The notes beneath the pieces are model-generated. The model saw only the letters and a program-made list of their open reading frames with translations. It was not told the origin of the DNA and ran no database searches. Shown piece by piece: positions 9,195 to 17,577 of a stretch of DNA of 21,756 bases (within the stretch, counting starts at the first letter, position 1; every line of letters begins with the position of its first letter). This stretch comes from a virus, in IMG/VR virus record IMGVR_UViG_3300032323_003312, positions 1 through 21,756 of that record; one strand, written 5' to 3'. The translations under genes and the position numbers were made by a program.

Positions 9195-9254
9195 GTAAGT
9201 AGTTTAGTTTAAACCGCTTTATATTGATTGAAATTTTTATTATAAAGGCATTAT

Positions 9255-10028
9255 ATGAAATTATTAAGCACAGGTAATCCCAAAACCTTAAAGGGAATGA
9301 AGCAAGGTTATAATACCTATATTCTACATTTAGCACCAGCAACATTATCTGGACATAATACCTGTCCAAAAGCTACCAAAGGCTGTATTAATGCTTGCCT
9401 GAATACTGCTGGTCGTGGTGGTATGTTTAAAAAAGGTGAGTTTACTAATAATATCCAAAAGGCTCGTATCCGTAAAACAGAGTTATTCTATGATAATCGG
9501 GAAGAGTTTATGTCCTTATTATATAAAGATATTACATTGGCGATTAAGCAGTCAGCTAAACTAGGATTAATTCCAGTATTTCGTTTAAATGGTACCTCTG
9601 ATATTAGCTGGGAAAAGTATCCAGTTACCATCGGTAATATCACTTATTCTAATATATTCGCCGCTTTCGGTCATATTCAATTCTATGATTATACCAAGGT
9701 ACTAGGTCGTAAGGTATCTAATATCAGTAATTATCATTTAACCTTCAGTATGGCAGATGGTAATTATCTAGATTGTAAGCAAGCAGTATTAGAAGGATAT
9801 AATATCGCTGTCGTATTTGGTATTAAGAAAGGTACCAAAATGCCTGAGAAATTCTTTAATAGTAATATGACAGTATATAATGGCGATGAAAGTGATTTAC
9901 GCTTTCTAGATCCAAAGAATAGTATTATCGGTCTATATGCAAAAGGTAAAGCTAAGAAGGATACTAGTGGTTTCGTTAAGTATCCCGTAGGTAATGATTA
10001 TCAATATACTATTAAGATAGCTGCATAA
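9255..10028 (+). CDS. Phage Gp88-family conserved protein
   Basis: The protein is 257 residues. It has the hallmark opening LLSTGNPKTLKGMKQGYNT then LHLAPA, the Cys cluster CPKATKGCINACLNTAGRGG (residues about 37-57), KARIRKTELF and RLNGTSDISWE. These are signatures of the 'gene product 88' family found in many phages, with no firmly assigned function. The conserved Cys residues suggest a metal or redox site, which is inference. The length looks complete. The start ATG 9255 follows AAAGG (9244-9248). T/A-ending codon use matches the two genes upstream. Confidence 0.85.
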   Translation: MKLLSTGNPKTLKGMKQGYNTYILHLAPATLSGHNTCPKATKGCINACLNTAGRGGMFKKGEFTNNIQKARIRKTELFYDNREEFMSLLYKDITLAIKQSAKLGLIPVFRLNGTSDISWEKYPVTIGNITYSNIFAAFGHIQFYDYTKVLGRKVSNISNYHLTFSMADGNYLDCKQAVLEGYNIAVVFGIKKGTKMPEKFFNSNMTVYNGDESDLRFLDPKNSIIGLYAKGKAKKDTSGFVKYPVGNDYQYTIKIAA

Positions 10029-11022: not shown

Positions 11023-11087
11023 GTTGACCGGTTTGGTCGACTATTATAAAGGATTCTTGCCATTTTTAATAGAATCCTTTATAATAG
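11023..11087 (+). terminator. Hairpin pair including a perfect 17-bp stem
   Basis: GTTGACC (11023-11029) pairs with GGTCGAC (11035-11041). Directly after it, CTATTATAAAGGATTCT (11041-11057) pairs perfectly with AGAATCCTTTATAATAG (11071-11087) around a 13-nt loop, followed by TTCTTTTA. This is the most convincing intrinsic-terminator-like structure in the window, and its right arm contains a promoter. Confidence 0.7.
11057..11085 (+). promoter_or_regulatory. Promoter embedded in the 11041-11087 hairpin
   Basis: TTGCCA (11057-11062) lies in the loop and TATAAT (11080-11085) in the right arm, with a 17-bp spacer. The gene at 11107 follows with AGGAG at 11097-11101. Terminator and promoter share the same bases. 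Confidence 0.55.
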
Positions 11088-11106
11088 TTCTTTTATAGGA
11101 GATATT

Positions 11107-16522: not shown

Positions 16523-16551
16523 TTGCCAACCAACCATCCTTGTGTTATAAT
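16523..16551 (+). promoter_or_regulatory. Sigma70-type promoter with imperfect dyad
   Basis: TTGCCA (16523-16528) and TATAAT (16546-16551), 17-bp spacer. CAAGGA (16513-16518) and GGTTG (16521-16525) are complementary to CAACC (16531-16535) and TCCTTG (16537-16542), a dyad that covers the -35. The leader TGAGAAGGAATT precedes the ATG. Confidence 0.78.
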
Positions 16552-16603: not shown

Positions 16604-16957
16604 ATGGCATTAACAGTTCGCAAAGGCAAAATCAACCGTCACGAGAAAATCACTCAGGTATTATTGAGTGGCAAACCAGTATCACCTGACGAGATTGCAA
16701 CCGTATTCAAAGGCACCGACCAAGAGTCTGTTTTGTATCGACTCTCAACCAACATCTACAACATTCGTAAAGATGGTGGCATCGTCAAAGTGATTAAATC
16801 TGGCCGTAAGGTGACAGGTTATCAGCTCGTAAACTTTACCGAGTTCGATGCTAATGGTCGTTACAAAGGCGTCACCAAAGCAGCTGCACCAGTGAAATCA
16901 GTAGTAAAAGCTGGCAAGGCAGTTGACCAATCCCAACCTGCAGAATTAGCAGCCTAA
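16604..16957 (+). CDS. Winged-helix/HTH-like protein, 117 residues
   Basis: ATG 16604 is used because it follows the promoter and an AAGGA site (16591-16595). Residues 13-65 have helices then a beta-wing: KITQVLLSGKPVSPDEIATVFKG, VLYRLSTNIYNIRKDGGIVKVIKSGRKVTGYQLV. This is the spacing of a winged helix-turn-helix. The Ala/Lys tail is flexible. A DNA-binding role is likely, as a regulator linked to the AAA+ gene, but this is inferred from the pattern. It is followed by a long structured leader of the next gene. Confidence 0.74.
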   Translation: MALTVRKGKINRHEKITQVLLSGKPVSPDEIATVFKGTDQESVLYRLSTNIYNIRKDGGIVKVIKSGRKVTGYQLVNFTEFDANGRYKGVTKAAAPVKSVVKAGKAVDQSQPAELAA

Positions 16958-16968
16958 TCGTAGAATCA

Positions 16969-17074
16969 AATATGGCCCCTCGTGAGAGGCCGCCATATTA
17001 AACACACCATACGAACCGATTATTCTGGTAGCAAAGGCGTAAGCTGATGGTGTGTTTAATATGGTGTGTACCAT
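16969..17074 (+). promoter_or_regulatory. Leader RNA with mutually exclusive hairpins
   Basis: Three pairings compete. Stem A: AATATGGC (16969-16976) with GCCATATT (16992-16999), capped by CCTC-GTGA-GAGG (16978-16989), where GTGA is a GNRA loop. Stem B: an 18-bp perfect pairing, CCATATTAAACACACCAT (16993-17010) with ATGGTGTGTTTAATATGG (17047-17064). Stem C: ATGGT (17061-17065) with ACCAT (17070-17074). A and B share 16993-16999; B and C share 17061-17064. Such sharing is typical of switches and attenuators. The loop of B (17011-17046) is unpaired and unrecognised. Confidence 0.6.
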
Positions 17075-17109
17075 AAAGTGAATAGTTTAATGTATATTAT
17101 AAGGAAATT

Positions 17110-17577
17110 ATGAGTAAGAAAATTTTAACTGAAAAAATTCGTGGTTTTTCTGATTATACCATTTCATCTGATGGTACAGTTACTTCCCACAAATTTGACA
17201 AAACAACCGTATTATCACCATCTACATCCACAGGATACGAAAAAGTAACGCTATCTAATGGTAAAATTAAAAAGAATCAGCAGGTACACCGTCTTGTTGC
17301 CCAAGCATTTTTAGATAAACCAAAAGGTAAAAATATTGTTAACCATATTGATGGCAACAAACTCAACAACAAATTAGATAATTTGGAATGGACAAATCAC
17401 AAAGGCAACAGTAAGCACTACTCAACTAAGTTAGCCAAAAAACAAGGTGTTGTGCGTAAACAGAAAAAAGAAGAAGATTTAAAAACTAGATTGGCTATTG
17501 TAGACTTTGCATATCGTGCTTGCACCAACAATCCAGTATTATTCCAATCCGTTTATGCAGCAAACTTTGGTGAATAA
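17110..17577 (+). CDS. HNH endonuclease with NUMOD4-like N-terminus (homing-type)
   Basis: The protein is 155 residues. Residues 11-30 (RGFSDYTISSDGTVTSHKFD) match the NUMOD4 start of phage homing endonucleases, VHRLVAQAF (59-67) follows, and VNHIDGNKLNNKLDNLEWTN (77-96) is the HNH core with Asn78, His79, Asp81, Asn91 and Trp94. The tail is basic. It is probably a free-standing homing endonuclease that nicks or cleaves intronless alleles or related phage DNA. It sits behind the leader described above and before a membrane protein of different composition. Confidence 0.88.
   Translation: MSKKILTEKIRGFSDYTISSDGTVTSHKFDKTTVLSPSTSTGYEKVTLSNGKIKKNQQVHRLVAQAFLDKPKGKNIVNHIDGNKLNNKLDNLEWTNHKGNSKHYSTKLAKKQGVVRKQKKEEDLKTRLAIVDFAYRACTNNPVLFQSVYAANFGE

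Follow-up and report, generated by a model that had tools for sequence, protein, structure and literature searches.

A candidate phage structured-RNA family with a three-way junction, found behind a small protein gene and in the spacers of permuted tmRNA genes

The stretch of DNA analysed here (the window) is an entire IMG/VR record of 21,756 nt, probably a fragment of a genome. Between two of its genes lies an RNA element that is conserved, possesses a covarying secondary structure, changes its genomic setting from phage to phage and occurs once in each positive record; its junction was found in more than 60 distinct copies from phages. Judged from these sequences, the best reading of the element is that of a previously unrecorded family of phage structured RNA, and we give about even chances to the view that it works as a trans-acting RNA module, the tip of which binds a protein or another partner. 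The HNH endonuclease gene that follows it in the window is not a constant partner and the most frequent site of the element is the tmRNA spacer, so the element is no switch for the HNH gene; it may act on its own.

Fold of the element and its conserved core

The element begins 3' of the stop codon of gene q (16604 to 16957, + strand; 117 aa), its upstream neighbour. Three stems on the + strand, all noticed in the sequence-only reading, are indeed present: a GNRA-capped hairpin, H1 (16969 to 16999), in which CCTC-GTGA-GAGG sits within an AATATGG/CCATATT stem; a long stem, the handle or P1, with its 5' arm at 16991 to 17010 and its 3' arm at 17047 to 17066; and a short third stem, TATGGT-GTGT-ACCATA (17060 to 17075), which most relatives lack. 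P1 is a perfect inverted repeat of 18 bp (16993 to 17010 with 17047 to 17064), or of 20 bp if the outer G-U pairs are counted, whereas the perfect inverted repeats of order-1 Markov sequences simulated from the window (200 runs, spacers of up to 100 nt) reached at most 14 bp by chance. Folded as RNA, the element region has a z of -3.2.

The 36 nt between the arms of P1 had been described as an unpaired loop, which our data contradict: they form two more hairpins, namely P2 (17015 to 17029; ACCG/UGGU), which lies within the core and is backed by covariation, and P3 (17036 to 17045; GGC-GTAA-GCT), in which three of three pairs are altered on both sides across copies, so that the whole is a three-way junction P1-P2-P3. 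The accompanying suggestion of a functional-looking structured RNA with the loop as its key part fared better, in that the loop carries the conserved core CGAACCGATTATTCTGGTAGCAA (17012 to 17034), which comprises J12, P2 and J23 and closes the three-way junction.

Across 42 distinct copies this core of 22 to 23 letters is near-invariant, with the form CGAACCGA(GUUA/UUAUU..)UCGGUAGCAA, unlike P1 and P3, which vary freely with compensation; in these copies the junction has either both an A on its 5' side and a G on its 3' side or neither of the two. Covariation was detected at nine of nine inner P1 pairs tested. In an alignment of 20 distinct copies over 16 pairs all cells are paired (318/318). 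Compensatory changes on both sides occur at 13 of the 16 pairs, and the covariation score is 0.887 compared with 0.249 for shuffled alignments and at most 0.24 with slid partners; the compensatory changes thus go beyond the controls, as in a conserved structured RNA. Changes within P2 include A-U to U-A in one copy (L291), G-U/G-C exchanges, and the replacement of CCGA/UCGG by CCAA/UUGG in L080. A pairing of CGAACC with the T-loops of tRNAs (GGUUCG) was considered and is unsupported: GGTGCG is found in many carrier tmRNAs, and CAAUCC in L080.

The stems had also been read as mutually exclusive. H1 and P1 do overlap in the window, but exclusivity was overstated: the segment common to both is only the 7 nt CCATATT, P1 retains 11 bp when H1 holds this segment, and the fold with full P1 (-41.7 kcal/mol) lies 2.8 kcal/mol from that with full H1 and a shortened P1 (-38.9 kcal/mol). 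Nor is the competition conserved. The same H1 is found 3' of q in L003, L004-L006, L008-L013 and L100; other relatives have in its place a second GNRA-capped type, GTCACC..CGTTGTGAAACG..GGTGACACC, which overlaps P1 by about 1 nt, and there both stems form together.

Genomic settings and distribution

More than 100 syntenic phage contigs were gathered as relatives by means of the neighbouring ATPase and q genes. Gene q, for which neither Pfam nor PHROG yielded a match, is strongly kept among them over its first 89 or so residues, with identities of up to 96%. 3' of q, these contigs possess a GNRA hairpin, either H1 or a different one, and then a long stem that bears one of several inserts; the insert of the window recurs in L003, L004-L006, L009, L012, L057, L129, L132 and L144 and, in diverged form, in L080-L082. 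At this position the outer handle is locus-specific while the inner part is exchanged. The region 3' of q is a hot spot for structured RNAs among the relatives. One insert, type C (L072, 2261 to 2377; L048, 6651 to 6767; L069), has a T-arm-like hairpin, AGAGGGTTCGAAACCTCT, and ARAGORN finds no tRNA in it; a long, GC-richer conserved stretch (GTGTGACCCGCACGA...), located downstream of q or of module A (as we call the element of the window) in L060 and L169/L176, resembles another structured RNA.

The downstream neighbour in the window is an HNH_3 endonuclease gene (17110 to 17577, + strand), which passes the Pfam gathering cut-off (PF13392; 36.1 bits against 24.8) and matches phrog_59 with an E of 1.6e-35. 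This gene stands next to the element in the window and in L004-L006, and is missing after the same element in L003, L012, L057, L132 and L080. The closest relative, L003, possesses another gene at this place, coding for a 449-aa protein, and L057, L132 and L080 possess yet another, coding for a short protein. Because the downstream genes differ between relatives, the HNH gene is a neighbour and not a target, and an HNH-specific leader is ruled out, the same element preceding other genes. The ribosome-binding site of the HNH gene (17101 to 17106) is clear of all three stems. No U-tract follows any of the stems on the + strand, no terminator-like site was found on this strand in the element, and a search between the element and the HNH gene gave no promoter-like site on it; nothing observed connects the element with expression of the HNH gene. 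The best promoter-like site, TTGCCA-17-TATAAT (16523 to 16551, + strand), is located upstream of q and, as a match to the consensus, agrees with it at 11 of 12 positions, with TG before the second hexamer. Elsewhere in the window (11039 to 11089), TTGCCA-17-TATAAT is enclosed by a 19-bp inverted repeat (GACTATTATAAAGGATTCT/AGAATCCTTTATAATAGTT) and forms a palindromic promoter-like site; similar sites were seen in L029, L039, L059, L140 and L171.

A scan with the exact core led to copies inside permuted tmRNA genes, a looser core pattern retrieved at least 119 viral stretches, and for the majority of the 60 loci submitted to it ARAGORN predicted a permuted tmRNA. By setting, the 62 distinct copies comprise 43 in the intervening segment of a tmRNA, 6 just upstream of a tmRNA, 2 beside tRNAs and 11 in mRNA or other settings. 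P1 of the tmRNA copies begins within a few nt of CCA and prolongs the acceptor stem. The Rfam models RF04321 and RF01850 recognise the tmRNA and leave the segment of the element as an unmodelled insert; pieces of permuted tmRNA (RF04321) surround this segment in L165, L167, L177 and many others. The permuted (two-piece) tmRNA is the most frequent host gene of the module, whereas around the window copy neither the tRNA-like 3' piece nor the coding 5' piece was found. In Pelagibacter phage HTVC008M (L287; NC_020484, near 145120-145460), ARAGORN predicts a permuted tmRNA with the tag ANFNEYALAA that is unannotated in the GenBank record.

When 50 viral records, 28 of which have a permuted tmRNA, were searched in full with a covariance model, 31 proved to contain the module, in exactly one copy each wherever it is sited; as many of the records searched are fragments, this copy number is in many cases a minimum. 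Eight of the 31 exceed 100 kb. In G041, G042 and G050 the tmRNA spacer is filled by something else and the module is located elsewhere. An RNA that acts in trans is expected to occur once irrespective of place, a repeated cis signal is not; we regard the single copy, given the fragments, as a suggestive signature of action in trans.

Neither of two near-exact core patterns yielded a genuine copy in 84,980 prokaryote species genomes (two matches to the patterns lacked the stem), and a bacterial or archaeal origin was rejected on the strength of these two scans. Since they required a near-exact core, diverged copies could be missed; at the sensitivity of these scans, the element is restricted to phages. 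Named phages gave no DNA match to it, and queries with the tmRNA region matched other tmRNAs only. No family of Rfam 15 reaches its cut-off for the window element; at E = 10 the weak matches comprise eukaryotic miRNA hairpin models, which detect nothing but the long stem, and two marginal matches to H1. Text searches for a tmRNA spacer motif, covering literature outside most subscription journals, found nothing.

The phage-associated motifs 'drum' and 'skipping-rope' of comparative screens have a long stem with conserved tip nucleotides and are common in phages; our element differs from them in being a three-way junction with another core and in having no Rfam match. The nearest published observation that we found concerns phage Melnitz, whose two-piece tmRNA is reported to bear a glutamine riboswitch motif (glnA; PMC9004378), likewise an aptamer-like structured RNA joined to a permuted phage tmRNA. 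However, the glnA model (RF01739) matched neither the window element nor L186 at E up to 10. Excerpts of the tmRNA database paper mention a tRNA or a repetitive element in a few intervening sequences and describe no recurrent structured spacer motif (PMC11915505). Identity with the HRIMA motifs was set aside, given that almost all of these are confined to metatranscriptomes and that they were discovered via association with hairpin or hammerhead ribozymes (PMC10085705).

Inserts in tmRNA spacers

A scan for tmRNA ends 40 to 70 nt apart gave at least 120 stretches. The matches listed, together with the loci already collected, amount to at least 90 distinct tmRNA spacers, which a crude rule of shared 8-mers sorts into about 46 clusters. 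Of the cluster representatives of these spacers, 80% have a terminal stem of 8 bp or more, versus 0.8% of shuffled sequences, and the handles share a 5' pattern near AAARYAYAYT. Module A forms the largest cluster among these spacers (25/90), a share inflated because earlier scans had selected for it; by reading, it accounts for about 12 of 80 rows among the spacer-scan matches listed.

Other inserts also move between settings. Type D is found behind q in L014 (3458 to 3582) and, on a different handle of 22 bp, upstream of the ATPase gene in L101 (about 720 to 850); it contains CTACC..GGTAGCAAATAG, and of its two wholly different handles the one upstream of the ATPase gene stands just behind a promoter-like TATAAT. 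The spacer insert of L313 (3644 to 3715) reappears on the minus strand of L246 (about 9233 to 9275) at the tip of a terminator-like hairpin; the tip common to both reads CCTCTTAACAATGsGCAACCTT, and the L246 hairpin is followed by TTTTTT. The insert of L355 occurs twice in one contig, the second time in an RNA array, so that a single copy is no rule for all inserts. The spacers of L397 and L398 (the tmRNAs of G041 and G042) and of L402 (G026) hold a short ORF for hydrophobic peptides that look similar (MFNDWHWTYLWGIAVVANYLFWIVKSLFDGDE..., MNLKWYQILLCLAVPINYFYWLVLHRFF...). In L048, the space between tRNA-Lys and tRNA-Arg is exactly filled by a stem-borne insert of 131 nt (253 to 383); its handle (GAAGCACATTA/TAGTGTGTTTC) is of the kind described above, and its tip is unrelated.

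Since handles of one kind bear many alternative inserts, it appears to be the handle, and not the insert, that serves the tmRNA. In general, the spacers of phage tmRNAs resemble cargo bays, each with a covarying stem handle that bears one of dozens of different inserts. We tentatively go further for phages of aquatic bacteria: the tmRNA spacer, together with a few stable-RNA or mRNA sites, could be a cargo bay for dozens of unrelated tips, sometimes a micro-ORF, each being a trans-acting effector (e.g. one that inhibits a host factor or acts as a decoy for it); one such tip, located outside tmRNA, would be that of the window.

Possible functions of the module

The element combines a variable handle P1, a near-fixed P2 with junction (CGAACCGA...UCGGUAGCAA) and a covarying P3. 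Its carriers are stable-RNA transcripts, mostly with the element in the intervening segment of permuted tmRNA, or, in the window, an untranslated region that follows the gene of a small protein; there the element would be transcribed together with q and the HNH gene and exert no regulation on the latter. In a trans-acting module the tip would be the binding part for a protein or another partner, and the handle would be a mount only, which in tmRNA copies may extend the acceptor stem and be cut away during maturation. Against this reading it can be said that 49 of the 62 copies are located within a tmRNA or directly upstream of one, which is compatible with a cis processing role. We infer the order of likelihood to be a trans-acting tip, then a cis element for processing or stability, a ribozyme, a cassette at the DNA level and finally a switch of the HNH gene.

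The strongest competitor, though in our judgement unlikely, is the cis-acting element. Handle and tip would mark the borders of stable RNAs (between tmRNA halves, before a tmRNA, between tRNAs, behind H1), guide endonucleases and protect ends, and in mRNA they would separate or protect the messages of q and HNH. Copies do abut the ends of stable RNAs, P1 continues the acceptor stem near CCA, and handles are both far longer than chance allows and similar in sequence (the AAARYAYAYT pattern). However, a near-fixed core of 22 nt is unneeded for such a role, dozens of different inserts occupy the same place, and there is one copy per record despite many stable-RNA borders.

A ribozyme that cleaves itself and so parts the two pieces of the tmRNA, or the halves of the mRNA, would suit a three-way junction that is compact, has a conserved single-stranded core of fitting size and is sited where RNA pieces need separating. 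We consider it improbable: the hammerhead and other Rfam ribozyme models gave no match, the other inserts at the same place are unrelated in sequence, and the permuted transcript is reported to be cut by tRNA processing enzymes (PMC11915505).

Still less probable is a mobile or recombination cassette at the DNA level, with an incidental RNA structure. The genomic location differs between phages, a locus-specific outer handle surrounds an exchanged inner part, and the neighbourhood is hypervariable, all of which would fit an insertion remnant or a shuffling element similar to the PeSL cassettes of T4-type phages. As cited in PMC4503421 (from Arbiol 2010, Comeau 2014), PeSL are stem-loop cassettes with an early promoter and a terminator stem-loop at shuffling sites between T4-like phage genes; in contrast, the window element has neither promoter nor U-tract, but a conserved junction core. 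Compensatory changes in P1 and P3 keep the pairing and not the sequence, and this covariation weighs heavily against an incidental structure; the copies inspected have the orientation of the carrier transcript, and no transposase was seen. The sequence-only reading had offered an inverted repeat left by an insertion as an alternative; in this simple form it is unsupported, the 18-bp arm occurring nowhere else in the record.

Least probable of all is the ligand-sensing riboswitch or attenuator for the HNH gene originally suggested, for which the overlap of H1 and P1, an aptamer-like junction and the Melnitz motif (PMC9004378) could be adduced, but which is unsupported, given that H1/P1 exclusivity is not conserved, the third stem is mostly missing, the ribosome-binding site is free and neither a U-tract nor a terminator is present, that downstream genes vary, that most copies lie in tmRNA spacers unlinked to HNH, and that glnA gives no match.

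If the module acts in trans, as we prefer, or otherwise, the discarded spacer of phage two-piece tmRNAs emerges as a hypervariable site for many small structured RNAs on a common handle, and a widespread, phage-restricted structured RNA that is missing from Rfam is added to those known. Should the tips be effectors, the spacers would constitute an easily mined reservoir of phage RNA effectors or regulators; should they merely guide processing, they would still supply an explanation, open to testing, of how the split tmRNAs of phages mature.
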